Source of the DNA: Telmatospirillum siberiense
GTDB taxonomy: Bacteria > Pseudomonadota > Alphaproteobacteria > Rhodospirillales > Magnetospirillaceae
NCBI RefSeq assembly: GCF_002845745.1
Contig: NZ_PIUM01000013.1
Coordinates: forward strand, 1 to 64,000
Direction: 5' to 3'
DNA: 64,000 nucleotides
Every line of letters starts with the position of its first letter. Within the stretch, counting starts at the first letter, position 1. The notes under the pieces were generated by a model. That model saw nothing but the letters and a program-made list of their open reading frames with translations, did not search any database and had not been told where the DNA came from. Below are positions 4,542 through 46,531 of the stretch, piece by piece. A program made the position numbers and the translations under genes.

Positions 4542-5861
4542 ATGGCAACCGGCTCTTTGGCCTCAGGCGAGGGTCTCGTCTCGGAGCGAACACTTGCTGA
4601 GCGCCGTTCTCGGAAGGCCGCACTTGGAAGCTTCGTCGGCGCGATCGTCGATTGGTACGATTTCCTGCTCTATGGCATTACCGCCGCCATCGTCTTCAAC
4701 AGCCAGTTCTTTCCCAACGTCAGTCCGACGGCGGGGACCTTGGCCGCCTTCGCCACTTTCGGCGTCGGCTTCCTTTTCCGGCCGCTGGGCGGCATCGTGT
4801 TCGGCCATTACGGCGATCACCTGGGGCGCAAGCGCATGCTGGTGATCACCGTCGGCATGATGGGAATCTGTACCGCCCTCATCGGCGTGCTGCCGACCTA
4901 TGACCAGATCGGCTGGTACGCGCCTCTCGCCCTGGTCATCCTGCGGGCCCTGCAAGGTTTCGCGGTGGGCGGCGAATGGGGGGGCGCGGCCTTGATGGCC
5001 GTCGAGAGCGCGCCGGAAGGCAAGAAGGCCTTCTATAGCAGCGGCGTGCAGGTCGGCTATGGGGTCGGGCTGGTTCTGGCCACCGGCATCGTCTCGCTTC
5101 TCAGCCATGCGCTGGACAACGACGCCTTCATGTCGTGGGGGTGGCGCATTCCCTTCGTGTTCAGCATCGTCCTCGTCGCCATCGCCCTGTGGATTCGCAT
5201 CACCATGGACGAATCCCGGGAATTCGTCGAAAAGGTCGGCGTCCATGGCGAGCGCAAGGTGAAGATTCCGGTGATCGCCGCGCTGCGCCAGCATCCCGAG
5301 GGCTTTCTGTTCATCATCGCGCTGCGCATGGCCGAAATGTTCAGCATGTACATCGTCACCGCCTTCGCCCTGGCCTATTCGACGAAAAATCTCGGCATGT
5401 CGCGGGATCTGTTTCTCAACATCAGCCTGCTGGTCGGCGCGATCAGTTGCGTGACGATTCCGATTTTCGCGGCGCTGGCCGACCGCTTCGGCAAGAAGCG
5501 CATCTATGTGACGGGGGCGGTGATCGGCGTGTTGTCGTCGGTTCCGTTCTTCCTCGCCCTCGAGGCCCGGTCCATCGTGTGGATCGTGGTCTTCTCGGTC
5601 ATGCTGGCCAATGTCGCCCATGACATGGTAGTCAGCGTCCAGCAGCCCTTGTTCACCGCGTTCTTCGGCACTGAATACCGTTACAGCGGCGCCGGCGTCG
5701 GCTATCAGGTGGCCAGCGTCGTCTGTGGTGGTTTCACGCCCTTCATCGCCACCGCTCTGCTCGGCATCGACGGCACCTGGCATGCGGTTGCAGCCTATCT
5801 GGCCGGCGGCTGCCTGCTCTCGGTGGTCGTTTCCGTCAGCATGAAGATGAAACGGTCCTGA
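4542..5861 (+). CDS. MHS-family MFS transporter, shikimate/metabolite:H+ symporter type
   Basis: A 439-residue inner-membrane symporter with about 12 hydrophobic segments. Hallmarks of the metabolite:H+ symporter (MHS) family are GAIVDWYDFLLYGITAA in helix 1, FRPLGGIVFGHYGDHLGRKRML in loop 2-3 and RALQGFAVGGEWGGAALM in helix 4. ShiA (shikimate) and KgtP belong here. Together with the shikimate catabolic genes just upstream, shikimate or quinate is a reasonable substrate, but the family is broad. The start at ATG 4542 follows a CTGGAGGAAACG ribosome site. A terminator separates it from aroQ, so it probably has its own promoter. Confidence 0.85.
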   Translation: MATGSLASGEGLVSERTLAERRSRKAALGSFVGAIVDWYDFLLYGITAAIVFNSQFFPNVSPTAGTLAAFATFGVGFLFRPLGGIVFGHYGDHLGRKRMLVITVGMMGICTALIGVLPTYDQIGWYAPLALVILRALQGFAVGGEWGGAALMAVESAPEGKKAFYSSGVQVGYGVGLVLATGIVSLLSHALDNDAFMSWGWRIPFVFSIVLVAIALWIRITMDESREFVEKVGVHGERKVKIPVIAALRQHPEGFLFIIALRMAEMFSMYIVTAFALAYSTKNLGMSRDLFLNISLLVGAISCVTIPIFAALADRFGKKRIYVTGAVIGVLSSVPFFLALEARSIVWIVVFSVMLANVAHDMVVSVQQPLFTAFFGTEYRYSGAGVGYQVASVVCGGFTPFIATALLGIDGTWHAVAAYLAGGCLLSVVVSVSMKMKRS

Positions 5862-27479: not shown

Positions 27480-28268
27480 TTAACGTACCAGCAGCAGTCG
27501 GGCTTCGTCGGCGGCGGTTCGCAGCACCGGCAGGAAGCGCCCGATCATTTCGTCTTTCTCGACGCGGGCGGCTTGCGTGCTGACATTGATGGCGGCGACC
27601 ACCACGCCCGAGGGATTTTTGACCGGAACGGCAAGCGAGCGAAGCCCGATCTCCAGTTCCTGGTCGATCAGCGCATATCCTTTGGCCCTGGTTTCTTCGA
27701 TGACCGATTTGAATTCGCTCTTCGCCGTTACCGTCTGCGCGGTGAACGGCTTCAAGGTGACGCGTTTCAGGTAAGCCTCGAAATCTTCCGGCGGCAGGCT
27801 GGCCAGCAGGACCCGTCCCATCGAGGTGCAATAGGCCGGCAGGCGGCTGCCGATATTGAGCCCCAGCGACATGATCCTCTTGGTCGCCACGCGGGCGATG
27901 TAGACCACCTCCTCCTCATCGAGGACGGCGGCCGACGACGATTCCTCCAGCGTGCGGCTGACCTGGCTCAGCACCGGATCGAGCACGGTGGCCAGCGGGG
28001 CCGACGACAGGAAGGAATAGCCCAGAGCCAGAACCTTGGGCCGGAGGAAGAAAACCCGTCCATCCGTGCCGGCGTAACCGAGCTGGGTCAGCGTCAGCAG
28101 GCACCGCCTGGCCGCCGCCCGGGGAAGGCCGGTGATCTTTGCCACGTCGGCGATGGTCAGGTTGCTGGTCTGTTCGGAAAAGGCGCGGATGACCGTCAGT
28201 CCGCGGGCCAGCGACGTCATGAAATTGCGATCGTCGGCGACGGCTTCCGCAGTCTTTGGTTCGATCAT
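27480..28268 (-). CDS. pcaR: IclR-family regulator of protocatechuate genes (PcaR/PcaU/PobR type)
   Basis: 262 residues: an N-terminal winged helix (FMTSLARGLTVIRAFSEQTSNLTIADVAKITGLPRAAARRCLLTLTQLGYA) and a C-terminal effector domain (SSSAAVLDEEEVVYIARV, CTSMGRVLLA, GYALIDQELEIGLRSLAVPV). The FMTSLARGL start and the YxGTDGRxFxLxPKVL linker are characteristic of PcaR/PcaU/PobR regulators, which respond to beta-ketoadipate, protocatechuate or 4-hydroxybenzoate. It is divergent from pcaHGBDC. A box like the known PcaR site lies 46 bp before its start, suggesting autoregulation. Which of the three effectors it uses cannot be told. Confidence 0.87.
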   Translation of the reverse strand: MIEPKTAEAVADDRNFMTSLARGLTVIRAFSEQTSNLTIADVAKITGLPRAAARRCLLTLTQLGYAGTDGRVFFLRPKVLALGYSFLSSAPLATVLDPVLSQVSRTLEESSSAAVLDEEEVVYIARVATKRIMSLGLNIGSRLPAYCTSMGRVLLASLPPEDFEAYLKRVTLKPFTAQTVTAKSEFKSVIEETRAKGYALIDQELEIGLRSLAVPVKNPSGVVVAAINVSTQAARVEKDEMIGRFLPVLRTAADEARLLLVR

Positions 28269-28313: not shown

Positions 28314-28328
28314 GGGCGATTATCGAAC
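28314..28328. promoter_or_regulatory. PcaR-type operator box at the regulator promoter
   Basis: GGGCGATTATCGAAC; its reverse, GTTCGATAATCGCCC, matches 13 of 15 positions of the Pseudomonas putida PcaR box as I recall it (GTTCGATAATCGCAC). It is nearest the IclR gene start. Confidence 0.7.
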
Positions 28329-28399
28329 GTTATCATCGGAAAACGCCCTTGACAAGGTTTGGGGGCTGGAGCGTAATCTGTGCGATATACTTATTATAA

Positions 28400-28414
28400 G
28401 TGCGATTATCGCAC
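28400..28414. promoter_or_regulatory. PcaR-type operator box at the pcaHGBDC promoter
   Basis: GTGCGATTATCGCAC is a near-perfect palindrome of the same box type, 121 bp before pcaH. A half site, GTGCGATAT, precedes it at 28380-28388, and a TTGACA hexamer lies at 28349. Confidence 0.7.
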
Positions 28415-28534: not shown

Positions 28535-29239
28535 ATGCCGGAACTCGCCGGTTACCGTCGCCCTTTTTGGGGCACGCAGCCCGAATATCTTCATTCGACC
28601 TATGTTTCGACCAGGATAAGGTCGCCATCGAGGCCATTGGTGTTGATTCCGCAAACCCTTTCGGAGCTCACCGGTCCGGTTTTCGGGCAAGACGGTATCG
28701 GGCGGAACGATGACGACCTGACCCGCCAGCATGACGGCGCCCCCTTGGGGGAACGGATGATCGTTCATGGCCGGGTGCTCGACGAAAACGCGCGGCCCGT
28801 CGCACGGACCCTGGTCGAATTATGGCAGGCCAATGCCGCGGGCCGTTATCATCATCAGCGCGATCAGCACGACGCCCCGCTCGATCCCAATTTCTCCGGC
28901 TGCGGCCGGATGCTGACCGACGAGGCCGGCCGCTATCGCTTCGTCACGGTCAAGCCGGGTGCCTATCCCTGGCGCAATCATCACAATGCCTGGCGTCCGG
29001 CTCATCTTCATTTTTCGCTGTTCGGTCCGGCCTTCATGACGCGGTTGGTTACCCAGATGTATTTTCCGGGCGATCCCCTGCTGCCCTATGACCCGATCTT
29101 CAATTGCACCGCCGATGAAAAGGCCCGCAATCGCCTGATTTCCCAGTTCGACTGGGAGGTGACGATGCCCGAACATGCGTTGGGCTATCGCTTCGACATC
29201 GTCCTGCATGGACGGAACGCCACTCCGATGGAGAGCTGA
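28535..29239 (+). CDS. pcaH: protocatechuate 3,4-dioxygenase subunit beta
   Basis: 234 residues, the iron-bearing subunit of the enzyme that opens protocatechuate between its hydroxyl groups to give beta-carboxy-cis,cis-muconate. The four Fe(III) ligands can be placed: Tyr in AAGRYHHQRD, Tyr in PGAYPWRNHHNAWRP, and two His in RPAHLHFSLFG. N-terminal YRRPFWGTQPEYLHSTYVST and LIPQTLSELTGPVFGQ are conserved PcaH features. ATG 28535 follows GGGAGGATCAGAG. First gene of pcaHGBDC; pcaG begins 1 bp after its stop. Confidence 0.96.
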   Translation: MPELAGYRRPFWGTQPEYLHSTYVSTRIRSPSRPLVLIPQTLSELTGPVFGQDGIGRNDDDLTRQHDGAPLGERMIVHGRVLDENARPVARTLVELWQANAAGRYHHQRDQHDAPLDPNFSGCGRMLTDEAGRYRFVTVKPGAYPWRNHHNAWRPAHLHFSLFGPAFMTRLVTQMYFPGDPLLPYDPIFNCTADEKARNRLISQFDWEVTMPEHALGYRFDIVLHGRNATPMES

Positions 29240-29240
29240 C

Positions 29241-29804
29241 ATGAGCCTACAGGCCACGACGTCGCAAACCGTAGGTCCCTATCTTCATCTCGGGCTGAGC
29301 TGGCTCAACACCGACGAAATCGCACCGCCGGGAATGGCCGGCCGGCGGGTTCGGATCTCCGGCAGGATCATCGATGGCGAGGGCGCCCTCGTTCCCGACG
29401 CCATGCTGGAGATCTGGCAAGCCGACCATCGGGGCCGCTTCGCCCATCCGGAAGATGCGCGGGCTGGCGAGGTGGAACCGGGATTTCGTGGCTTCGGACG
29501 CGTTCCCACCGACGCCGAGGGCGCCTTTCGTTTCCAGACGATCAAGCCCGGCCGCGTTCCAGGGCCGGGCGGCGGGTGGCAAGCCCCCCATCTTCTGGTC
29601 TCGATCTTCGCCCGTGGCCTGCTCAAGCATTTGGTGAGCAGGCTTTATTTCCCCGATGAGCCGGACAACGCCTCGGATCCCATTCTCGCTCTGGTCGACC
29701 CGGAAAGGCGCGACACGCTGATCGCAAGGGCTGCCGGGGATGAACTTCTGGAGTGGGACATCGTCCTGCAAGGCCCGAGGGAAACCGTCTTTTTCGAATT
29801 TTGA
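29241..29804 (+). CDS. pcaG: protocatechuate 3,4-dioxygenase subunit alpha
   Basis: 187 residues, the partner of PcaH in the ring-cleaving dioxygenase. It has the family N-terminus TTSQTVGPYLHLGLSW, then ISGRIIDGEGALVPDAMLEIWQADHRGRFAHPED, FGRVPTDAEGAFRFQTIKPG and APHLLVSIFARGLLKHLVSRLYFPDE. The alpha subunit shares the fold but lacks the iron ligands (APHLLVSIFARG in place of RPAHLHFS), as expected. Start ATG 29241 is almost contiguous with pcaH, so subunit synthesis is coupled. Confidence 0.96.
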   Translation: MSLQATTSQTVGPYLHLGLSWLNTDEIAPPGMAGRRVRISGRIIDGEGALVPDAMLEIWQADHRGRFAHPEDARAGEVEPGFRGFGRVPTDAEGAFRFQTIKPGRVPGPGGGWQAPHLLVSIFARGLLKHLVSRLYFPDEPDNASDPILALVDPERRDTLIARAAGDELLEWDIVLQGPRETVFFEF

Positions 29805-29843
29805 CGGGGACGTCCGCAAAGCCGGTTGAGCAAGGATGACCAT

Positions 29844-31241
29844 GTGACGCGGGACGAGGCGATGGACGAGGGAAAATCGCGGGCGAGAGGCAACGGGCGG
29901 GAATTACTCGATCCCCTGTTCGTCTCCGTCCGGCTGCGCGAGGTTTTCTCGGATCACGGACGTTTGCAGGCGATGCTGGAGGTCGAGGCCGCGCTGGCCC
30001 GGGCCGAGGCGCGCTGCGGTATCGTTCCTGCGGCGGCGGCGGCGGCCATTGCGGCGTGCTGCCGCGCCGAAGCGTTCGATGTCGGGCAATTGGCCGAGGC
30101 GGCGGGACGTGCGGGGAACCCCGCCATTCCCCTCGTCATGGCACTGACCGCCCTGGTCGGAGACCGGAATGCCGAGGCCGCAGCTTTCGTCCATTGGGGC
30201 GCGACGTCGCAGGATGTCATGGATAGCGGCCTGATCCTGCAGTTGCGGGAGGTCTTGCGCCATATCGAAGGGGGGCTGGAACAACTCTCCGGCCTGTTGG
30301 CGGATATGGCGGAACGTCACAGGGGCACCTTGATCGCCGGGCGGACCTGGCTGCAGCAGGCCCAGCCCTCCACCTTCGGGCTCAAAGCGGCCGGATGGCT
30401 GAGCGCCAACGAACGGCACCGGGCGCGGCTCGCCGAGATACGGCCGCGTCTCCTGGTGCTGCAATTCGGTGGCGCCGTGGGGACGCTGGCATCCCTGGGC
30501 GAGCGGGGAATGGCGGTGGCGGCGGCCCTGGCCGAGGAATTGGGGCTGGCTTTGCCGGATCTGCCTTGGCACAGCCAGCGCGATAGATTGGCCGAACTGG
30601 CCGCGGTGTTGGGATTGCTGGTCGGCAGTCTGGGAAAAGTCGCCCGCGATATCTCATTGCTGATGCAAACCGAAGTCGGCGAAGTTTTCGAGCCGGCGGG
30701 ACCGGGACGCGGAGGGTCGTCGGCAATGCCCCACAAGCGCAATCCGGTCGCCTCGGCCAGCGTGCTGGCCGCCGCGATCCGCGTGCCGGGGCTGGTTTCG
30801 ACCATGCTGGCGGCGATGATCCAGGAACATGAGCGCGGTCTCGGCAATTGGCTCGCGGAATGGGAGACGTTGCCCGAGATCTGCGTGCTGGCGGGAGGGG
30901 CGGTGGAACAGATGGCGGCGGTTCTCGAAGGTCTGGAGATCGACGCGGAAAGGATGCGGGACAACATCGGCCTGACGCACGGCCTGATCTTCAGCGCCTC
31001 CGCCGCCATGGCCCTGGCCCCCCATCTGGGGGCCAGGGCGGCCCATGCGGTGGTGGAGGACTGCTCACGCCGCGCCATTGCCGAAGACCGTGAGTTGAGA
31101 GACGTTCTGGCGGGCCATCCGGCCGTGCGGGCCCATCTGACCGAAGCCGGGCTGGACGCGCTGTTCGATCCCGCCAAGTCCTTGGGGCTGGCGGGCGTTT
31201 ATGTCGATCGCGTCCTGGCGGCCTGGCGGGAACGCCGATGA
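29844..31241 (+). CDS. pcaB: 3-carboxy-cis,cis-muconate cycloisomerase
   Basis: About 465 residues of the fumarase/adenylosuccinate lyase superfamily, forming gamma-carboxymuconolactone. The superfamily signature GSSAMPHKRNPVASA is at about residue 290; HWGATSQDVMDSGLI and AGRTWLQQAQPSTFGLKAAGW are PcaB features. The start is uncertain: GTG 29844 has AAGGA 7 bp upstream and is used here; TTG 29826 and ATG 29862 are also in frame. Conserved sequence begins at LLDPLF, so none is ruled out. It lies third in the operon. Confidence 0.93.
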   Translation: MTRDEAMDEGKSRARGNGRELLDPLFVSVRLREVFSDHGRLQAMLEVEAALARAEARCGIVPAAAAAAIAACCRAEAFDVGQLAEAAGRAGNPAIPLVMALTALVGDRNAEAAAFVHWGATSQDVMDSGLILQLREVLRHIEGGLEQLSGLLADMAERHRGTLIAGRTWLQQAQPSTFGLKAAGWLSANERHRARLAEIRPRLLVLQFGGAVGTLASLGERGMAVAAALAEELGLALPDLPWHSQRDRLAELAAVLGLLVGSLGKVARDISLLMQTEVGEVFEPAGPGRGGSSAMPHKRNPVASASVLAAAIRVPGLVSTMLAAMIQEHERGLGNWLAEWETLPEICVLAGGAVEQMAAVLEGLEIDAERMRDNIGLTHGLIFSASAAMALAPHLGARAAHAVVEDCSRRAIAEDRELRDVLAGHPAVRAHLTEAGLDALFDPAKSLGLAGVYVDRVLAAWRERR

Positions 31242-31251
31242 GAGGCCTTTC

Positions 31252-32028
31252 ATGCCGATGATCGATGTCGCCGGGTTGGCGGTGCACTACCGCCTGGATG
31301 GACCGGAAGACGCGCCGGTTCTGGTGTTGTCCAATTCCCTGGGGACCACCCTCGACATGTGGCGGCCGCAACTCGCCGCTTTCAGCCGGCGCTTCCGTCT
31401 CCTGCGTTACGACAGCCGGGGCCATGGAGAAACGACGGTTCCGCCCGGGCCTTACGCAATCGGGCAGATGGCGGGCGATCTTCTGGGATTGCTCGACGCC
31501 TTGGGCTTCGATCGCGTTCATTTCTGCGGGCTGTCCATGGGAGGGATGGTCGGGCAGTCCCTGGCTCTGCGGGCGCCGGAAAGACTGGATCGCCTGCTGC
31601 TTTGCAATACCGCCGCCGTCATCGGTCCACCGGAGGCGTGGGACCGGCGGGCCGCCGCCGTTGAGGCCGGAGGCATGGCGGCCGTCGCTCCGGTGGTCGA
31701 ACGGTGGTTCACCGCCGACTTCCTGCGGCGTTTTCCAGACGATGTGGCGCCGTTCGCCGCGATGCTGAGGGATACGCCGCCCAAGGGGTATGTCGGGTGC
31801 TGTCATGCAATCCGCGAGCATGACTTGCGTTTCCTGGTATCGGCGATCTCTACCAGGACCATGGTCATCGCCGGAACGCACGACGTGGCGACGCCGCCGG
31901 GCGACGGCCGTTTCCTCGCCGGGGCGATCCCCGGGGCGATCTATGTCGAGTTGCCGGCGGCCCATCTGTCCAATGTCGAAGCCGCCGGCCCTTTTACCAG
32001 GGCTGTCCTGGCGTTTCTGAACGGGTAG
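31252..32028 (+). CDS. pcaD: 3-oxoadipate enol-lactonase
   Basis: A 258-residue alpha/beta hydrolase that opens beta-ketoadipate enol-lactone to beta-ketoadipate. SNSLGTTLDMWRPQL is the oxyanion-side motif, the nucleophile Ser is in CGLSMGGMVGQ, Asp in IAGTHDVATPP and His in PAAHLSNVEAA. It is a separate gene here, not the fused PcaL seen in some bacteria. ATG 31252 is 10 bp after pcaB. Confidence 0.95.
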   Translation: MPMIDVAGLAVHYRLDGPEDAPVLVLSNSLGTTLDMWRPQLAAFSRRFRLLRYDSRGHGETTVPPGPYAIGQMAGDLLGLLDALGFDRVHFCGLSMGGMVGQSLALRAPERLDRLLLCNTAAVIGPPEAWDRRAAAVEAGGMAAVAPVVERWFTADFLRRFPDDVAPFAAMLRDTPPKGYVGCCHAIREHDLRFLVSAISTRTMVIAGTHDVATPPGDGRFLAGAIPGAIYVELPAAHLSNVEAAGPFTRAVLAFLNG

Positions 32029-32035
32029 GCGAATC

Positions 32036-32440
32036 ATGGATGAAAAAGATCGTCATCGGCAGGGACAGAGCGTCCGGCGCGAGGTTCTGGGCGATGTCCA
32101 TGTCGACCGGGCCCTTCGTCAGCGTACCGCTTTCAGCGAGGATTTTCAGGATCTGATCACGCGCTATGCCTGGGGTGAAATCTGGACGCGGCCGGGATTG
32201 CCCAGGCATACACGCAGCCTGCTGACCTTGAGCATGATGGTGGCGCTCAATCGCGACGCGGAATTTCAACTTCATGTCCGTGCCGCCGCCAATAACGGCG
32301 TGACGCGTGATGAAATCAAGGAAGTGCTGCTGCAAACGGCGATTTATTGCGGTGTGCCGGCCGCCAATCACGCCTTTCATCTGGCGGTCGGGGTCTTTCA
32401 GGACATGGATCGCGAGGCGTCCCCGCCGCCGGTGGATTGA
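32036..32440 (+). CDS. pcaC: 4-carboxymuconolactone decarboxylase
   Basis: A 134-residue CMD-family enzyme converting gamma-carboxymuconolactone to beta-ketoadipate enol-lactone. N-terminal GQSVRREVLGDVHVDRAL, then YAWGEIWTRPGLPRHTRSLLTLSMMVALNRDAEFQLHVRAAANNGVTRDEIKEVLLQTAIYCGVPAANHAFHLA is the full decarboxylase signature. It starts 7 bp after pcaD and is the last gene of the operon. It meets the convergent GGDEF-EAL gene with a gap of 6 bp and no visible terminator. Confidence 0.95.
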   Translation: MDEKDRHRQGQSVRREVLGDVHVDRALRQRTAFSEDFQDLITRYAWGEIWTRPGLPRHTRSLLTLSMMVALNRDAEFQLHVRAAANNGVTRDEIKEVLLQTAIYCGVPAANHAFHLAVGVFQDMDREASPPPVD

Positions 32441-37657: not shown

Positions 37658-38887
<1,230 letters not shown>

Positions 38888-39589
38888 TCAGGCGACGGCG
38901 ACCAGGCGCTGGAGCAGCCTGTCGTCATGCGCCAGGCTGGCACTGTCCGACCGATGAACGATGCGGCCCCGGTCCAGAATGATGGCCTGACGGGTCAGGG
39001 CCAGGGCCAGCCGGGCATGCTGTTCGACGACGATCACCGCCATGCCGGTCCCGGTCGTCAGATCGCGGATGACGCTCACCAGTTCCTGGACGATGATCGG
39101 CGCCAACCCTTCCATCGGCTCGTCCAGCAGCAGCAGGCTCGGGTTGACCATCAGCGCCCGGCCGATGGCCAGCATCTGTTGCTCGCCCCCGGACAACTGG
39201 TTGCCCAGATTGGCCCGCCGTTCCCTGAGGCGTGGGAAAACACGGTAGACCGTCTTCAGAGTCCATCGCCCCGGCCGGGCCACCGAGGTCAGATGCTCCT
39301 CGACGCTGAGCGAGGGGAACATGAGGCGTTCCTGCGGCACCCAGCCCAGTCCGGCATGGGCCCTGCGGAAGGTCGGCATTCCACCGAGGTCGCGGCCGCG
39401 CCAGGCCAGGCGGCCCTTGTGGAGCCGGGTGAAGCCCATCAGGGTGACGAGAAGCGTGGTCTTGCCGACGCCGTTGCGCCCCAGCAGCGCCAGACTGTCC
39501 CCTTCCTTCAGGCTGAAAGAGACGTCGTCCAGGACGATGCCGTCACCATAGCCGGCGGTCACGTTGTCCAGCCTGAGAAGTTCAGACAT
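38888..39589 (-). CDS. livF: branched-chain-type ABC transporter ATP-binding protein (LivF-like)
   Basis: A 233-residue ATPase. Walker A GRNGVGKTT, Q-loop in LGWVPQERLMFPSLSVEEHL, signature LSGGEQQMLAIGRALM, Walker B LLLLDEPMEGLAP and the H-loop in VVEQHARLAL. The DEPMEGLAP form and short length mark LivF. ATG 39589 overlaps livG by 8 bp. Within livKHMGF-pobA it most likely powers uptake of 4-hydroxybenzoate or a similar aromatic acid, not amino acids; that is inferred from context and from HAAT-type aromatic importers. Confidence 0.93.
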   Translation of the reverse strand: MSELLRLDNVTAGYGDGIVLDDVSFSLKEGDSLALLGRNGVGKTTLLVTLMGFTRLHKGRLAWRGRDLGGMPTFRRAHAGLGWVPQERLMFPSLSVEEHLTSVARPGRWTLKTVYRVFPRLRERRANLGNQLSGGEQQMLAIGRALMVNPSLLLLDEPMEGLAPIIVQELVSVIRDLTTGTGMAVIVVEQHARLALALTRQAIILDRGRIVHRSDSASLAHDDRLLQRLVAVA

Positions 39590-40334
39590 GGGGAAGCTCG
39601 CCCAGATAGACCTCGCGGACGCGCGGGTCGGCGGCGATTTCGTCCGGTGTTCCCTCGGTGAGCGGCTTTCCTCCGACCAGGACGGTGATGCGTCGGGCGA
39701 AACGGAAGACCAGATCCATGTCATGTTCGATGAAGAGAATGGTCACATCGTCGGGCAGCCCGGCGATGACGTCGAAGATCTCCGAACTTTCGCCCGTCGG
39801 GATGCCCGCCGCCGGTTCGTCGAGCAGCAGCAGTTTGGGGCGGGCGGCCAGCGCCAGGGCGATTTCCACCAGTCGTTGCCGGCCGTAAGGCAGGCTGCGG
39901 GTCGGGCGGTCGGCGTCGCGGTCCAGGTGCAGGCGGGCCAGCAGATCCCAGGCCTCGTCGATCTCGGCCCGGCGTCCGGCGACCGTGCGATGCCAGATGC
40001 GGGCGGCGCCGGATCGTTCGCAGATGGCCAGGACCACCGATTCCAGCACGGTCAGGCCGGGAAACAGGGTGTTGATCTGAAAGGTCCGTGCCATTCCCCG
40101 TTTTACCCGTTCGTGGGGAGCGAGGTGGGTGACGCGTTCGCCCATCAGAAAGACCTCGCCCGATGACGGCGCCAGCACTCCCGTCAACAGATTGATGAAG
40201 GTGCTTTTGCCGGCGCCGTTGGGGCCGATCAGCGCGTGGCGGGCGCCCTTCGGCAGGGAAAGGCTGATCTGGCTGTTGGCGACGAACCCACCCCAGCTTT
40301 TCGACAGTCCTTCCGTACGAAGGGCGGTGGTCAT
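39582..40334 (-). CDS. livG: branched-chain-type ABC transporter ATP-binding protein (LivG-like)
   Basis: A 250-residue ATPase. Walker A GPNGAGKST, the LivG-specific stretch RVTHLAPHERVKRGMARTFQINTLFPGLTVLESV, signature region RSLPYGRQRLVEIALALA (SYG-type, as usual for LivG), Walker B LLLLDEPAAGIPTGES and H-loop FIEHDMDLVFRFARR. ATG 40334 overlaps the livM stop (ATGA). Pairs with LivF as the motor of the importer. Confidence 0.94.
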   Translation of the reverse strand: MTTALRTEGLSKSWGGFVANSQISLSLPKGARHALIGPNGAGKSTFINLLTGVLAPSSGEVFLMGERVTHLAPHERVKRGMARTFQINTLFPGLTVLESVVLAICERSGAARIWHRTVAGRRAEIDEAWDLLARLHLDRDADRPTRSLPYGRQRLVEIALALAARPKLLLLDEPAAGIPTGESSEIFDVIAGLPDDVTILFIEHDMDLVFRFARRITVLVGGKPLTEGTPDEIAADPRVREVYLGELPHV

Positions 40335-41374
40335 CGGCGTTTTCCCCTGATCCGTCCGGCAAGCAGGGCGGCGCCGCCCAGGACGCCGCCCCGGGCATAG
40401 AGCACGACGGCCACCAGCATCAGGCCCAGCCAGAACTGCCAGTAAACCGGATCGAGCCCGGCCAGGATGTCCTGGGCGAGCAGGAACAGGGCGGCTCCGA
40501 TCAGGGCGCCGTACAGACGGCCGGTGCCGCCCAGCACCAGCATGATCAGAAGCTCGGCGGAACGCTGGAAGGACAGCGAATCCAGCCCGACGAACCTGGT
40601 GGTCTGGGCGAGCAGGGCTCCGGCGGCGCCGGCCAGGGCGGCGGCGATGACGAAAACGCTGACCAGCCGCCGCTCGACGGGGGCGCCCAGCGAGGCCATG
40701 CGCTTGCTGTTCTCCTTGATGCCGCGAAGTGAAAGACCGAAAGGCGAATGGACCAGCCGTCGGCACAACAGGAAGAGAAGGAACAGGACGCCCAGGCTGT
40801 AGAGATAGGCCGTCCGGCCGAACAGGTCGAAATCGAACAGGCCGAACAGGGGGGCGATCTCCATGCCGGACAGCCCGTCGACGCCGCCGGTGATGGCGGC
40901 CGCCTTGTTGGCCGCTTCGAAGAACAGCATGCCGATGCCCAGGGTGACGATCAGCCGGCCCAGGTCCTGGCCGCGCACCACCAGCAGGCTGACCGGCAGG
41001 GCGACGAGGGCGGCGGCGGCGGCCCCGGCGAGAAGGCCGGACAACGGTTCGTGCCAGCCATGGCTGGCCAGCAGTCCGGCGGCATAGGCGCCGGTTCCGA
41101 AAAAGGCGGCATGTCCAAGCGAGACGATGCCGGCATAGCCCATGATCAGGTCAAGGGAGAGGGCGAACAGGCCGGCGATGAGGATCTGGCTGCCCAGCAT
41201 CAGGTAACCGGGGAAGGCGAAATAGCCGAGAACCGGCATCAGCCAGAATGCCGTTTCGCGCAGGGTCCAACGGTCGGCCGGCAACCGGGCGATCCTTTCG
41301 CATGGTCCGGCTGGCCGGATAACGTCCTCCTCCGGGGAAACGGCGGCCGGGGTGGGAAAGGGGCGCAGCATCAT
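40331..41374 (-). CDS. livM: branched-chain-type ABC transporter permease (LivM-like)
   Basis: About 347 residues with roughly ten hydrophobic segments. LivM features include LDLIMGYAGIVSLGHAAFFGTGAYAAGLLA, RGQDLGRLIVTLGIGMLFFE and the cytoplasmic loop FGLSLRGIKENSKRMASLG that contacts the ATPases. ATG 41374 overlaps the livH stop codon; ATG 41371 is adjacent. A proline-rich cytoplasmic N-terminus of about 40 residues precedes the first helix. Confidence 0.93.
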   Translation of the reverse strand: MMLRPFPTPAAVSPEEDVIRPAGPCERIARLPADRWTLRETAFWLMPVLGYFAFPGYLMLGSQILIAGLFALSLDLIMGYAGIVSLGHAAFFGTGAYAAGLLASHGWHEPLSGLLAGAAAAALVALPVSLLVVRGQDLGRLIVTLGIGMLFFEAANKAAAITGGVDGLSGMEIAPLFGLFDFDLFGRTAYLYSLGVLFLLFLLCRRLVHSPFGLSLRGIKENSKRMASLGAPVERRLVSVFVIAAALAGAAGALLAQTTRFVGLDSLSFQRSAELLIMLVLGGTGRLYGALIGAALFLLAQDILAGLDPVYWQFWLGLMLVAVVLYARGGVLGGAALLAGRIRGKRR

Positions 41375-42237
41375 GCCTTCCTCCCGTAAAGACCACGGGG
41401 GAAGAAGGCCAGCAGCGTCAGCATCAGTCCGTAGATGATGAAGGCGCCGGCCTCGGGAACGTAGTATTTCCCCGCCACGTCGAAGACGCCGAGGAGCAGG
41501 GCGGCCAACGCCGGGCCCTTGATGCTGCCGGCGCCGCCGATGGCCACCACCAGCAGAAAATAGACCATATATTTGATGGGAAAGGTCGGGTCGAGCCCCA
41601 GCACGTCGATGCCGACGGCGCCCCCGACGCCGGCCAGTCCGGTGCCCAGGGCGAAGGTCAGGACGAAGATCCTGTCGACGGGAATGCCCAGTCCGGCGGC
41701 GGCGGCCCGATTGTCCACCGAGGCGCGGACGCGGGCGCCGAAGCGGGTTTTCGCCATCAGAAGATGCAGGGCCAGGGTGGTCGCGGCCACCAGGCCGATC
41801 AGGAACAGGCGGTAGGCGCCGAGGTCGACGCCGCCCGGATGAATCTGGCCGCGCAGGAAGCCGGGCAGGCGCACCGGCTGCTGGTTGGGGCCCCAGACAT
41901 AGGTGGCGGCGGCGACGGCCATGAAGGTCAGCCCGATGGAAAACAGCACCTGATCGAGATGACTGGCGTCGTAAAGGCGGCGGTACAGGGTGCGTTCGAG
42001 CGCCGCGCCGACCAGGGCGATGGCCAGGAAAACCAGGGGAAGGGTGGCCAGGAAAGGCATCCCGGCCCGTTGCATCAGCGCGACGCAGAGATATCCCCCC
42101 GCCATGGCGAAGGCGCCATGGGCCAGATTGACGAAATTCATCAGGCCCATGGTCACCGACAGCCCGACGCTGATCAGAAACAGCAGGCTGCCGTAGGCCA
42201 CGCCATCGAACAGAACTCCGAGGACGCTCGCCGCCAT
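41371..42237 (-). CDS. livH: branched-chain-type ABC transporter permease (LivH-like)
   Basis: 288 residues, about eight hydrophobic segments. FDGVAYGSLLFLISVGLSVTMGLMNFVNLAHGAFAMAGGYL is the LivH N-terminal signature and FGARVRASVDNRAAAAGLGIPVDRIFVLTFALGTGLAGVGG is the ATPase-contact loop region. It starts 2 bp after livK and forms the membrane channel with LivM. Confidence 0.94.
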   Translation of the reverse strand: MAASVLGVLFDGVAYGSLLFLISVGLSVTMGLMNFVNLAHGAFAMAGGYLCVALMQRAGMPFLATLPLVFLAIALVGAALERTLYRRLYDASHLDQVLFSIGLTFMAVAAATYVWGPNQQPVRLPGFLRGQIHPGGVDLGAYRLFLIGLVAATTLALHLLMAKTRFGARVRASVDNRAAAAGLGIPVDRIFVLTFALGTGLAGVGGAVGIDVLGLDPTFPIKYMVYFLLVVAIGGAGSIKGPALAALLLGVFDVAGKYYVPEAGAFIIYGLMLTLLAFFPRGLYGRKA

Positions 42238-42239
42238 CG

Positions 42240-43400
42240 TTATTTTCCCGGATCCCGGACGTCGGGGACATGGTCGAATTCGACGTTGAAATAATGACCG
42301 CCGATGTTTTCGACCCGGCGGATGTAAACGGTCTGGACGATGTCGCGGGTATCGGGGTCGATGGCGATCGGCCCGCGTGGGCTGGTGAATTTCATGCCCT
42401 TCAGGATCTCCATCGCCTTGTCGCCGTCGATCTTGCCGTTGAGTTTCGAGGCGACCTGATAGATGGCGTTCATCCCGTCATAGGCGGCCACGGCCATGAA
42501 GTTGGCCCGGCCTCCGCCGCCCGCGACCTCCTCATAGGCTTGCAGGAAGGCTTTGTTTTCCGGTGAATCGTGGGCCGCCGAATAATGGAAGCTGGTGATC
42601 ATGCCCGAGGCGACATCGCCCATCACGTCCAGCACGTGATCGTCGGTGATGTCGCCCGTGGCGATCACTTTGATCCCCGCCGCCCCCAGACCGCGTTCCT
42701 GGAACCCCTTCATGAAGGCGATTCCCTGTTCCCCGGCCGGCACGAAGACGAAGACGGCTTGCGGCTGGCTATCCTTGATGCGCTGGATGAAGGGGGCAAA
42801 TTCGGGACTGCGCAGGGGAACGCGGATGGAATCGACGACTTCGCCGCCGGCTTCGGTCAGCGCCTTTTTGAAGGCCGCTTCCGAATCGATGCCGGGAGCA
42901 TAGTCGGAGACCAGCGTGAACACCCTGCGGATTCCGTTCTTCGCCGCCCAACTGGCGAGCGGCGCCACCACCTGCGGCAGGGCCATCGAGAAGCGGGCGA
43001 TGTAAGGCGACTTGGTGGTAACCACCGAGGAGGCGGCGTTCATCACGATCATCGGTTTTTTCGCCTGGGTGGCGATATCGGCGACGGCCAGGGCCTCGGG
43101 GGTCAGGCCGAAGCCGGCCAGGAAATCCACTTGGTCCCGGACCACCAGTTCCTGGGCCAGACGTTTGGCGATTTCGGGCGACGGACCGGTGGTGTCCCTG
43201 ACGATCACCTCGACCTTGCGACCGGCGACGGTGTCGCCATGCTGGTGCATATAGGCCTTGATCCCGGCGTCCATCTGCTTGCCGTAGTCGGCGAAGGGAC
43301 CCGAGAAGGGGGCGACGAGACCGATCTTCAAAGGCGTCTCGGCCAGGGCCGGCAGGGCCGTCGCCAATAGACAGGCGATGGCCAGGAGAATTCGTTTCAT
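42240..43400 (-). CDS. livK: ABC transporter substrate-binding protein (LivK-like), probable aromatic acid binder
   Basis: 386 residues with a signal peptide cut near LATALPALAE. The type I binding fold shows as PLKIGLVAPFSGPFADYGKQMDAGIKAYMHQHGDTVAGRKVEVIVRDTTGPSPEIAKRLAQELV and PMIVMNAASSVVTTKSPYIARFSM. HAAT-family binding proteins of this type bind aromatic acids in several alphaproteobacteria. The first gene of the operon that ends with pobA; two PcaR-type boxes lie 125-160 bp upstream. 4-Hydroxybenzoate or protocatechuate as ligand is inferred. Confidence 0.9.
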   Translation of the reverse strand: MKRILLAIACLLATALPALAETPLKIGLVAPFSGPFADYGKQMDAGIKAYMHQHGDTVAGRKVEVIVRDTTGPSPEIAKRLAQELVVRDQVDFLAGFGLTPEALAVADIATQAKKPMIVMNAASSVVTTKSPYIARFSMALPQVVAPLASWAAKNGIRRVFTLVSDYAPGIDSEAAFKKALTEAGGEVVDSIRVPLRSPEFAPFIQRIKDSQPQAVFVFVPAGEQGIAFMKGFQERGLGAAGIKVIATGDITDDHVLDVMGDVASGMITSFHYSAAHDSPENKAFLQAYEEVAGGGGRANFMAVAAYDGMNAIYQVASKLNGKIDGDKAMEILKGMKFTSPRGPIAIDPDTRDIVQTVYIRRVENIGGHYFNVEFDHVPDVRDPGK

Positions 43401-43524: not shown

Positions 43525-43557
43525 GGGCGATTATCGCACTTATGTTCGAATATCGCC
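43525..43557. promoter_or_regulatory. paired PcaR-type boxes at the liv-pobA promoter
   Basis: GGGCGATTATCGCAC (43525-43539) and GTTCGAATATCGCC (43544-43557) are separated by TTAT; their centres are about 19 bp apart. Both match the PcaR box type and lie closest to livK. Confidence 0.7.
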
Positions 43558-43645
43558 TACACGTTAGGGCGTGAAACGGAAAGTGGTCAAGCGAAAAATA
43601 AACGATTTCCCCGCTTGACAGGCTCGTCGCCCGCCGCCTAGTTTC

Positions 43646-43679
43646 GTACGATATTCGAACTTATGTGCGATAATCGAAC
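43646..43679. promoter_or_regulatory. paired PcaR-type boxes at the ligase-thiolase promoter
   Basis: GTACGATATTCGAAC (43646-43660) and GTGCGATAATCGAAC (43665-43679) are again separated by TTAT, with the same centre spacing of 19 bp as the pair facing livK. The second box ends 13 bp before the chosen ligase start, so binding could block initiation or overlap a -10 element. Confidence 0.7.
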
Positions 43680-43692
43680 ATTCGGTGAGTGC

Positions 43693-45327
43693 ATGTCCGA
43701 TCGTTCCCCGCCCGAGAGATCGCCGCTCGAAACCTTGTCATTCTTTCCCCCGCATGACGGCACCTTGTGGGCATTCCTGGAAAGTCGCCAGGGGCCCGAT
43801 CCCGATCGTCCGTTTCTGATCTTCAATGATGTCGCCACGAGCTGGCGGCAATTCCAGGGGGCGGTCGAACAAACCGTTCGCATGCTGCGAGGCAGGGGGG
43901 TGGAACGGGGGGATCGCGTGGCGGCGATGGCCGCCAATTGCGCCGATTATGTCGTGCTTTTCTTCGCCCTGGCGCGAATCGGCGCCATCCTGGTTCCGGT
44001 CAATCCCGACTTCGGGGCCGGCGAGGCCGGTTATATTCTGGCCCATGCCGGCGTTTCAGGCGTGGTCTGCGCACCGGCGAGCCTTCCGGTTGTCCGGCGA
44101 GCCGCGGCTGACGAAGGGCTTGCCGTCTGGTTTCTGGTTTTCGGCGCCGCTGTCGACGATGTCCCCGGATTTTCCGAGGTACCGGACAATGCGCCCCCGA
44201 GGGCGGCGCCCGCCGCCGGAACGGCGGACGACATCTGCCTGATCATGTACACCTCGGGAACCACCGGTTTTCCGAAAGGGGTGACGCATTCCCAGGGAAA
44301 TTTCGTGATGGCCGGTGAGGCCTTTGTCGAAAGAATGCATTTGCAGACGCAGGACCGGCTGCTTTGCATCCTGCCGCTTTTCCACATCAATGGCTTGTTC
44401 TATTCGCTGGGCGGCGCGGTGGCGGCGGGCGCCACGCTGATTCTGGCGCCGCGCTTCAGCGCGTCCGGCTTTTGGCCCCTGGTTTCCCGTTCGCGGGCGA
44501 CCGAGGTCAATATCATCGCGGCCATCGGAACCATTCTGGCCCGTCGCCCGCGCGAGGAATTCGTGCCGGGGCATGGTCTGGTCAAGGTCTATGGCGCGCC
44601 GGTGACGGCGGAAATCGCCGAGGTGTTCATCCGCGATTTCGGGGTGCATCACGTCATCGAGGGTTACGGCATGACGGAAATACCCGGGGCCTGCAATCTG
44701 CCCTTCGATGGCGAACGGCGAATCGGCAGCATGGGGGTGGCGGCCCGGCATCCCGACCCGGCGGTCCGTTTCAGCGAATTGCGCGTCGCCGACGACGAAG
44801 GGCGTGATCTTCCGCCGGGGCAGGTCGGGGAACTGCTCGTCCGGACGCCGATCGTCATGAAGGGCTATTACCGGGACCCTGACCAAACCCGGGCGGCGTT
44901 CCGCGATGGCTGGTTCCTCACCGGCGATCTGGTACGCCGCGACGCCGACGGCTACCACTATTTCGTGGCGCGCAGGAAAGACATCATCCGGCGGCGTGGC
45001 GAGAACATCTCCGGCGCGGAACTCGACCGTGTCGTGGGCGCCCATCCGGATGTGGCCCAGGCGGCGGCCATCGGCGTCGCATCCGATCTGGGGGAGGAGG
45101 ATATTCTGGTGGCTGTCGTCCTCAAGGACGGTTCCCGATTGACCGCCCGCGACCTCCAGAAGTGGTGCGCAACGTCTCTCTCCAGCGTCAAATGTCCAAG
45201 GTATGTTGCATTTCTTGACGCCTTGCCGCAAACACCGACATTCCGTGTCGCCAAGTTCAAATTGAAACAGGACCCCGATCTCCGCGCCCGCGCCGTGGAT
45301 TTGACCCTGTTGGATGAAGAAGGTTGA
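43693..45327 (+). CDS. AMP-forming acyl-CoA ligase, candidate 3-oxoadipate:CoA ligase
   Basis: About 544 residues of the ANL superfamily, CaiC-like. The P-loop motif IMYTSGTTGFPKGVTHS is at about 190, VIEGYGMTE is motif A5, GWFLTGDLVRRDADGYHYFVARRKDIIRRRGENIS covers A7-A8 and the Lys of the adenylation half is in FRVAKFKLKQD. It forms an acyl-adenylate, then the CoA thioester. Start ATG 43693 is preferred because ATG 43663 overlaps an operator box. It sits 1 bp before a PcaF-type thiolase behind PcaR-type boxes, in a window without pcaIJ, so beta-ketoadipate is a plausible substrate. A benzoate- or cinnamate-type acid is the main alternative. Confidence 0.85.
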   Translation: MSDRSPPERSPLETLSFFPPHDGTLWAFLESRQGPDPDRPFLIFNDVATSWRQFQGAVEQTVRMLRGRGVERGDRVAAMAANCADYVVLFFALARIGAILVPVNPDFGAGEAGYILAHAGVSGVVCAPASLPVVRRAAADEGLAVWFLVFGAAVDDVPGFSEVPDNAPPRAAPAAGTADDICLIMYTSGTTGFPKGVTHSQGNFVMAGEAFVERMHLQTQDRLLCILPLFHINGLFYSLGGAVAAGATLILAPRFSASGFWPLVSRSRATEVNIIAAIGTILARRPREEFVPGHGLVKVYGAPVTAEIAEVFIRDFGVHHVIEGYGMTEIPGACNLPFDGERRIGSMGVAARHPDPAVRFSELRVADDEGRDLPPGQVGELLVRTPIVMKGYYRDPDQTRAAFRDGWFLTGDLVRRDADGYHYFVARRKDIIRRRGENISGAELDRVVGAHPDVAQAAAIGVASDLGEEDILVAVVLKDGSRLTARDLQKWCATSLSSVKCPRYVAFLDALPQTPTFRVAKFKLKQDPDLRARAVDLTLLDEEG

Positions 45328-45328
45328 G

Positions 45329-46531
45329 ATGAGCGAAGCATTTGTCTGCGATGCCGTGCGCACGCCTATTGGACGCCATGGGGGCGCCCTGGCCACCGTG
45401 CGGCCCGACGATTTGGCCGCCGTTCCGTTGCGCGCCTTGATGGCGCGAACCCCCGGCGCCGATTGGTCGCGGCTCGACGAGGTCTATCTGGGATGCGCCA
45501 ACCAGGCCGGCGAGGACAACCGCGATGTGGCCCGGATGGCTCTTCTGCTGGCCGATTTTCCGGTGGAGATTCCCGGCGTGACGGTCAATCGGCTATGCGG
45601 CTCGGGCCTGGAGGCGGTCGGCGGCGCGGCGCGGGCCATCGTCGCCGGGGAAATCGACTTCGCCATCGCGGGGGGCGTCGAATCCATGTCGCGGGCTCCC
45701 TTCGTCTTGCCGAAAACCGAACAGGCGTTTTCGCGCGCGGCCGTTCTCGAAGACACGACGGTCGGCTGGCGGCTGGTCAATCCGCTGATGCGGGCCCGCT
45801 ATGGTACCGATTCCATGCCCGAGACCGCCGAGAACGTCGCCGCCGAATTCGAGATCTCGCGCGGCGATCAGGACGCCTTCGCCTTGCGCAGCCAGAACCG
45901 CGCCGCCCTGGCCGCCGAAGCCGGAATCCTGGCCGAGCAGATCGTCCCGGTCGTGGTGGCGAGGAAGGGGGGGGCGTCCCTGATCAGTGTTGATGAACAG
46001 CCCCGGCCGGATAGCTCCCCGGAGGGACTGGCCGCGCTGCGGACGCCGTTCCGCTCTCCCGGAACGGTGACGGCCGGTAACGCGGCGGGCATCAACGATG
46101 GGGCGGCTGCGCTGGTGATCGCCTCCGAAAGGGCTGTCCGCGAGCATGACCTGCGGCCCCGGGCGCGTATTCTGGGAATGGCGACGGCCGGCGTGGTTCC
46201 CCGGCTGATGGGAATCGGGCCGGTGCCGGCCAGCCGAAAGCTGTTGGCCCGGCTTGGCCTGGGGTTCGATGACTTCGACGTGATCGAGATCAACGAGGCC
46301 TTCGCCGCCCAGGCCCTGGCCTGCCTGAGGGACTTTGGCATCGCCGATGATTCGTCTCGGGTCAATCCCTACGGCGGCGCCATCGCCCTTGGTCACCCCT
46401 TGGGGATGAGCGGAGCCCGTCTGGTGCTGTCGGCGGTTCAATATCTGGAAAAAAGCGGTGGCCGGAGGGCGTTGACCACCATGTGTATCGGCGTCGGACA
46501 GGGCATCGCCCTGGCGCTGGAGCGGGTGTGA
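45329..46531 (+). CDS. pcaF: 3-oxoadipyl-CoA thiolase
   Basis: A 400-residue thiolase cleaving beta-ketoadipyl-CoA to succinyl-CoA and acetyl-CoA. The N-terminus EAFVCDAVRTPIGRHGGALATVRPDDLAAVPL is distinctive for PcaF; the nucleophile Cys is in VNRLCGSGLEAV (about 90), with NEAFAAQAL, GGAIALGHPLGMSGAR (His) and TTMCIGVGQG (Cys) completing the site. Start ATG 45329 follows AGAAGGTTGAG and gives the usual PcaF length; ATG 45314 is in frame. It ends the protocatechuate branch. Confidence 0.93.
   Translation: MSEAFVCDAVRTPIGRHGGALATVRPDDLAAVPLRALMARTPGADWSRLDEVYLGCANQAGEDNRDVARMALLLADFPVEIPGVTVNRLCGSGLEAVGGAARAIVAGEIDFAIAGGVESMSRAPFVLPKTEQAFSRAAVLEDTTVGWRLVNPLMRARYGTDSMPETAENVAAEFEISRGDQDAFALRSQNRAALAAEAGILAEQIVPVVVARKGGASLISVDEQPRPDSSPEGLAALRTPFRSPGTVTAGNAAGINDGAAALVIASERAVREHDLRPRARILGMATAGVVPRLMGIGPVPASRKLLARLGLGFDDFDVIEINEAFAAQALACLRDFGIADDSSRVNPYGGAIALGHPLGMSGARLVLSAVQYLEKSGGRRALTTMCIGVGQGIALALERV

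Follow-up and report, generated by a model that had tools for sequence, protein, structure and literature searches.

In the 64,000-nucleotide stretch of Telmatospirillum siberiense DNA analysed here (positions 1 to 64,000 of contig NZ_PIUM01000013.1; hereafter the window), an AMP-forming acyl-CoA ligase is situated directly before the thiolase gene pcaF. The ligase probably acts as a 3-oxoadipate–CoA ligase that replaces the PcaIJ transferase of the beta-ketoadipate pathway, a reading to which we assign a probability of roughly 75%. Textbooks present this pathway as a route for aromatics derived from lignin, with CoA activation by transfer from succinyl-CoA. PcaB, PcaC, and PcaD deliver free 3-oxoadipate, leaving CoA activation and thiolysis by PcaF. 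The gene identities, the gene order, the operators, and the linkage of the ligase to pca genes in three lineages were observed directly; the substrate and the in vivo function of the ligase are proposed from this genomic context.

The stop codon of the ligase (TGA, 45325–45327) is separated by 1 bp from the thiolase ATG at 45329, and both genes are probably carried on one transcript. A second in-frame ATG of the ligase exists upstream, at 43663, but it falls at an operator's edge, which makes 43693 the preferable start. The thiolase passes two curated PcaF models, the equivalog TIGR02430 (649.5 bits, cut-off 597) and NF006551 (667.7 bits, cut-off 605), and is the sole match above the PcaF cut-off in the source genome (6.2 Mb, 81 contigs, rated 100% complete). 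Its translation contains the motifs NRLCGSG, GHPLGMSG, and CIGVGQG, which we take to hold the active-site Cys, His, and Cys. Elsewhere in the window, pcaR, pcaH, pcaG, pcaB, pcaD, and pcaC each exceed the cut-off of their own NCBIfam model (28535–32440 for pcaH–pcaC), as does pobA. No pcaIJ was found in the window, and none of the 14 genome-wide matches to the CoA-transferase family PF01144 is located on its contig (C4). The gene inventory of an earlier sequence-only reading (pobA, pcaH, G, B, D, C, and a PcaF-type thiolase, with no pcaIJ) is thereby confirmed with curated models.

The ligase–pcaF pair and the pcaH operon are preceded by the same kind of PcaR-type box. With up to three mismatches, GTTCGATAATCGCAC has 12 matches at 8 places in the window against 2.0 expected, palindromic sites being scored on both strands, and 0 of 100 shuffles reach 12. 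The arrangement described in the sequence-only reading, an AMP-forming ligase 1 bp before the thiolase and behind PcaR-type boxes, thus holds in both coordinates and box counts. Across the source genome, GTGCGATAATCGAAC with up to two mismatches has 13 matches and the reversed control pattern has none. Six of the 13 (five places) fall into the pcaR/pcaH and ABC/ligase promoters, and these six include both genomic matches with at most one mismatch. The pcaH promoter contains one strong palindrome with weaker neighbouring boxes. The window has two pairs with a spacing of 19 bp and a combined score of at least 24, and none of 60 first-order random sequences of equal length has any; two such spaced pairs likewise exist in the 13-kb ligase locus (L053) of G036, a genome from the same family and another genus. 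This pair scoring was applied to the window and to L053, using a consensus made after the sites were seen. L053 holds five box matches where 0.3 would be expected (0 of 200 shuffles), and the whole G036 genome, at up to two mismatches, holds 14 vs 5 for the reversed control; its three one-mismatch boxes all precede the ligase operon. Paired palindromic operators of the PcaR type are present upstream of the ligase in both genomes. By these predicted operators the ligase would belong to the PcaR regulon, and PcaR probably binds and controls the operons of pcaH and of ligase–pcaF as well as the transporter half of the divergent promoter.

No PcaIJ orthologue was recognised among the CoA transferases that PF01144 finds in the source genome. 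The 14 matches form five pairs that we take to be of the AtoDA type and two pairs on contig C30, presumably of the Gct type. In the trees of A subunits (18 rows, one A row dropped) and B subunits (11 rows), no Ato-type pair joins the four PcaI (branch support 96/94) or the four PcaJ references (100/99), which derive from pca- or cat-bearing clusters of Sinorhizobium, Novosphingobium, Acinetobacter, and Mycobacterium; six references were taken from plasmid records with an AtoD relative (552, of which 60 were listed). The A tree is able to recognise a PcaI orthologue, since a subunit on C53 of the family genome G017 groups with PcaI in it. The nearest reference to the four typical Ato-type pairs is AtoD/AtoA beside atoSC in Azospirillum, with identities of 65–80% among the four pairs and to the Azospirillum proteins. 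The neighbours are a 3-hydroxybutyrate dehydrogenase for the pair at C22:208k, two thiolases and a below-cut-off match to a 3-keto-5-aminohexanoate cleavage enzyme for those at C22:226k and 228k, a below-cut-off TIGR00366 match and a thiolase at C2:107k, and a thiolase at C1:111k; these thiolases pass the broad model TIGR01930. Each of the five pairs was considered as PcaIJ and rejected for its position outside the PcaI and PcaJ clades. The genome search for pcaIJ/catIJ proposed in the sequence-only reading, combined with a genome-wide box search, gave no CoA-transferase pair at a box site in the source genome, so the pcaIJ pair elsewhere under the same box, which that reading had held to contradict it, was not found.

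The Gct-type pairs on C30 and on contig C187 of G036 were also considered as a hidden PcaIJ and rejected, with identities of 28–33% to CatI/CatJ of G017 and G025, another family genome; of the four source-genome subunits, two entered this direct comparison. Among the 55 family genomes, seven encode the B subunit of Gct-type pair 1, and five of these seven lack pcaH. By sequence reading, C30:16763–24322 (L019, with two Gct-type pairs) and the C187 locus (L177) are Gct-type clusters containing enoyl-CoA hydratase-like genes, accompanied in L019 by a PaaK-like ligase, and no curated NCBIfam family was found for the five subunits scanned. In addition, C22:224967–231106 (L016), with two transferase pairs, two thiolases, and a 3-keto-5-aminohexanoate cleavage-like enzyme adjacent to one another, is possibly a beta-keto acid cleavage cluster.

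Within the family, pcaH exists in 4 of the 55 genomes: the source genome, G036, G017, and G025. In the two genomes with the ligase, no PcaIJ or CatIJ orthologue was found; the two without it (no match at E 1e-60) contain a PF01144 pair in the pca cluster. We take this pair to be of the CatIJ type; no curated NCBIfam model matched it at 1e-12. The gene order of G017 is pcaDC, pcaH, pcaG, pobA, catI, catJ, pcaF, and pcaB, and in G025 the pair is located between pobA and pcaB (catJ, then pcaB). In these clusters, models were used to scan pcaH of the two genomes plus pcaDC and pcaF of G017, and the other genes were named by sequence reading. The G017 locus (L145:8395–16004), in which a fused PcaDC and the CatIJ-type transferase appear beside a gene read from its sequence as a LysR-type regulator, represents another layout in the same family.

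In G036, the ligase orthologue (63–65% identity to the window ligase) is the first gene of a box-headed operon, ligase::pcaH, pcaG, pcaB, pcaD, pcaC, and pobA. The ligase and PcaH form a single uninterrupted frame of 778 amino acids (L053:8085–10421, minus strand). Ahead of the internal start of PcaH stands GGAGGA, which resembles a ribosome-binding site, and PcaH may accordingly be either fused or separate. The genes from pcaG to pobA each exceed a curated cut-off, with pobA above NF006091 and below TIGR02360, and a divergent gene scores 298 bits as a member of the PcaR/PcaU/PobR family (cut-off 284.75). A PF01144 search of G036 revealed no PcaIJ- or CatIJ-type pair; its two matches are both located in one Gct-type cluster resembling that on C30 (78–84% for pair 1). 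Although Gct-type A subunits can escape PF01144, CatI and CatJ of G017 receive 70 and 144 bits from it, and it should therefore have picked up a CatIJ pair in G036. In both G036 and the source genome, the ligase is the sole CoA-activating enzyme recognised at PcaR-type boxes.

A third ligase, 65% identical to that of the window, is situated on a contig (L061) of a Myxococcota metagenome-assembled genome (MAG), as named by its record title. It is divergent from a pcaF gene that passes TIGR02430 (669.8 bits), with 78 bp between the starts at 5499 and 5420. In this genome (G1034; 4.7 Mb, completeness not given), PF01144 has 0 matches and thus reveals no family I CoA transferase. In a tree of 29 rows, the three ligases group together with a support of 100/98, nested in a 13-row clade (100/100). 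Linkage of the ligase to pca genes without a PcaIJ or CatIJ orthologue thus extends over the source genome, G036, and G1034, in the last case to pcaF. With no Ato-type pair found in either, G036 and G1034 are stronger cases than the source genome. The proposal of the sequence-only reading, that a ligase stands in place of the PcaIJ transferase, gains genomic support from the box-headed operon of G036 and the divergent pcaF of L061.

The scan of genome contigs that gave L061 returned at least 80 loci with ligase relatives, and the neighbourhoods of the eight among those listed that have at least 45% identity were read. Orthologues are rare: only the source genome itself matches among 385 class genomes at E 1e-90. 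In the order, 3 of 297 genomes match, the third (G038) with a relative 37–38% identical beside another kind of thiolase-like gene and with no pca gene recognised by sequence reading. In the phylum, 2 of 398 genomes match at E 1e-110, the second (G709) with 51% identity and an in-frame stop. Eleven plasmid matches exist, and three of their neighbourhoods were read, one without annotation.

The ligase would convert ATP, 3-oxoadipate, and CoA into AMP, PPi, and 3-oxoadipyl-CoA, which PcaF would then cleave with CoA to acetyl-CoA and succinyl-CoA; in G036, thiolysis could use a pcaF on another contig. Since the ligase would replace PcaIJ, the pathway would be independent of succinyl-CoA as the CoA donor, and it would release succinyl-CoA without consuming one.

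The ligase contains the P-loop YTSGTTGFPKG, together with EGYGMTE and RRKDIIRRRGENI, which we take to be the motifs A5 and A8 of ANL enzymes (both tested and present). Its best NCBIfam match, NF004808 (PRK06155, ATP-dependent acyl-CoA ligase), covers nearly the whole length at 399 bits (cut-off 722). Naming the enzyme by curated families was rejected, the best of 105 NCBIfam matches being far below its cut-off. Reading the substrate from the nearest solved structures was likewise rejected, as FadD13 and the oxalate, feruloyl, and malonyl ligases fall within 30 bits of each other (oxalate 211.4, feruloyl 207.9, and malonate 200.8–203 bits in the PDB sequence matches).

The other ten rows of the 13-row clade represent MAGs (Burkholderiales and other proteobacteria), a Cupriavidus isolate, and plasmids of Cupriavidus and Rhizobium, and sister sequences such as CNE_RS36930 of C. 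necator N-1 and the plasmid ligase of Rhizobium leguminosarum have 45–58% identity. A citryl-CoA lyase gene adjoins the sister ligase in C. necator N-1, Cupriavidus sp. WGlv3, and a Burkholderiales MAG, and a citrate-synthase-domain gene adjoins that of MAG L060. In C. necator N-1 the ligase is located between the citryl-CoA lyase and an annotated dioxygenase, with leuC/leuD-annotated genes and a PcaR-family regulator (289 bits, cut-off 284.75); in WGlv3 it lies between the lyase and an intradiol-type dioxygenase (PF00775). A carboxymuconolactone decarboxylase-family gene, a tartrate dehydrogenase, and tcuB occur within about 10 kb of the R. leguminosarum ligase. The remaining sister ligases have other neighbours. 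Such neighbourhoods are suggestive of ligases for di- and tricarboxylic acids, which is compatible with 3-oxoadipate. Meanwhile, the sister-ligase loci L187:9168–18724 (C. necator N-1 plasmid pBB2) and L064:9174–15553 resemble an uncharacterised ring-cleavage route, L187 additionally containing a CaiB-type CoA transferase, an HMG-CoA lyase, and the leuCD-annotated genes.

Several observations weigh against a 3-oxoadipate ligase in place of PcaIJ. The A10 Lys, which matters for adenylation in ANL enzymes, is replaced by Arg in the window ligase (residue 518, 45244–45246) and in those of G036 and L061, as well as in L055. The corresponding residue is Lys in 9 of 10 sister sequences, and in the 16 outgroup ligases it is Lys (13), Arg (2), or Ser (1). 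The ANL label consequently rests on the other motifs and the family matches. Linkage of the ligase to pca genes occurs in three lineages only, among the matches listed. In G036, pcaF (684.8 bits) is located on a contig other than that of the ligase operon, surrounded by what sequence reading suggests are phenylacetate genes, and G017 possesses a PcaI orthologue in addition to its in-cluster pair. Moreover, four of the five Ato-type pairs of the source genome pass TIGR02429 (pcaI_scoA) and TIGR02428 (pcaJ_scoB), which are broad subfamily models that do not separate substrates. The acetate CoA-transferase alpha model is the best match by score, and none of the five reaches its cut-off, so that these models assign the pairs no single substrate.

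It is on these pairs that one rival explanation is built, in which an off-cluster AtoDA-type transferase activates 3-oxoadipate and the ligase performs another or an auxiliary job. In Roseovarius nubinhibens, genetic work has shown that a 3-oxoacid CoA transferase encoded outside the cluster does the job of PcaIJ (PMC12442348), and the five pairs of the source genome are therefore not dismissible on sequence alone. Their position outside both reference clades, the lack of any such pair at a box site, and the pca context of the ligases of G036, with no Ato-type pair found, and G1034, with no PF01144 match, render this explanation unlikely.

The transporter divergent from the ligase suggests another role, that of a peripheral enzyme activating an imported aromatic acid such as a hydroxycinnamate or benzoate; both the transporter and pobA stand beside the same operators, and the PDB sequence matches of the ligase include feruloyl-, 4-coumarate-, and benzoate-CoA ligases. 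The similarity to the feruloyl ligase is about that to the oxalate and malonate ligases, however, and the other genes of the G036 operon turn free 4-hydroxybenzoate into 3-oxoadipate. With the L061 ligase paired to pcaF, and with citryl-CoA lyase genes adjoining the Cupriavidus sister ligases and that of a Burkholderiales MAG, we regard this role as very improbable. Least probable of all is a side-branch role in which the ligase would activate a different ring-cleavage acid (a carboxymuconate or some related tricarboxylate). The sister clade may act in this way, as the ligases between citryl-CoA lyase and dioxygenase in C. necator N-1 and WGlv3, and the PcaR-family gene of the former, indicate; but the three ligases linked to pca genes group in a clade apart, pcaBDC is complete in the source genome and G036, and the partner in the source genome and L061 is PcaF, whose name-giving substrate is 3-oxoadipyl-CoA. 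Replacement of PcaIJ by a 3-oxoadipate–CoA ligase is thus the reading we favour. We further consider it rather likely that these enzymes represent an undescribed class of 3-oxoadipate–CoA ligases and an ATP-driven, succinyl-CoA-independent form of the pathway, distributed over two genera of the family and a Myxococcota MAG, in one case within the PcaH frame, and belonging to a wider clade of ligases for ring-cleavage and tricarboxylic acids.

Table 1. Features of the ligase–pcaF region and the pca gene set in the window.
Feature	Position	Strand	Evidence or remark
AMP-forming acyl-CoA ligase, proposed 3-oxoadipate–CoA ligase	43693..45327	+	544 aa; NF004808 match, P-loop, tree clade
pcaF, 3-oxoadipyl-CoA thiolase	45329..46531	+	TIGR02430 and NF006551 over cut-off
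Paired 15-bp PcaR-type operators upstream of ligase	43646..43679		palindromes start at 43646 and 43665, 19 bp apart
Second operator pair, ABC-transporter side of divergent promoter	43525..43558		starts 43525 and 43544, 19 bp apart
PcaR-type boxes between pcaR and pcaH	28314..28414		pattern search
pcaR-type IclR regulator	27480..28268	-	TIGR02431, 337.9 bits, cut-off 284.75
pcaH, protocatechuate 3,4-dioxygenase beta	28535..29239	+	TIGR02422
pcaG, protocatechuate 3,4-dioxygenase alpha	29175..29804	+	TIGR02423; open reading frame from first start, true start may be later
pcaB, 3-carboxymuconate cycloisomerase	29826..31241	+	NF006554, TIGR02426
pcaD, 3-oxoadipate enol-lactonase	31201..32028	+	TIGR02427
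pcaC, 4-carboxymuconolactone decarboxylase	32036..32440	+	TIGR02425
pobA, 4-hydroxybenzoate 3-monooxygenase	37658..38833	-	TIGR02360, 542.9 bits, cut-off 538.7
ABC-transporter permease and ATPase genes, same transporter as the binding protein below	38888..42237	-	open reading frames, named by sequence reading
Substrate-binding protein, branched-chain-amino-acid-type ABC transporter	42240..43400	-	urea/branched-chain amino acid binding-protein matches, all below cut-offs

The binding-protein gene of the ABC transporter is the one divergent from the ligase, and the transporter as a whole (38888–43400) probably serves aromatic-acid uptake.

Searches of the open-access PMC literature turned up no paper describing a CoA ligase or synthetase for 3-oxoadipate (beta-ketoadipate). 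The ligase route would be a variant of a known pathway and not a categorically new system. If true, it would explain pca clusters without pcaIJ and shift how the pathway balances ATP and succinyl-CoA. A single-chain enzyme would then also be available to make 3-oxoadipyl-CoA, which is of interest as a precursor of adipate-type chemicals.

Compared with PcaIJ, the 3-oxoadipate:succinyl-CoA transferase of pcaIJF operons, the window ligase occupies a similar place beside pcaF near an IclR-family regulator gene and would yield the same product. The records read for Sinorhizobium, Novosphingobium, and Acinetobacter show pcaI-pcaJ-pcaF after an IclR-family gene, and in the source genome the order is box-ligase-pcaF. 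The two enzymes belong to unrelated families, PcaIJ being a two-subunit transferase and the ligase a single-chain, ATP-dependent enzyme that would need no succinyl-CoA. The CatIJ-type (Gct-like) transferase also shares the position in the pca cluster, between pobA and pcaF in G017 and between pobA and pcaB in G025, but consists of two subunits, whereas the window ligase is an ANL enzyme. From NF004808 the ligase differs in its score, far under the 722-bit cut-off, and probably in its substrate, judged by context. The sister ligase of C. necator N-1 likewise has a PcaR-family regulator and a dioxygenase gene nearby, but the neighbour of the Cupriavidus sister ligases is citryl-CoA lyase and not PcaF. 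Malonyl-CoA synthetase and oxalate–CoA ligase, ANL enzymes for short dicarboxylates, are among the nearest solved relatives of the window ligase, yet they are about as distant as the fatty-acid and feruloyl ligases, with no sign of a shared substrate.

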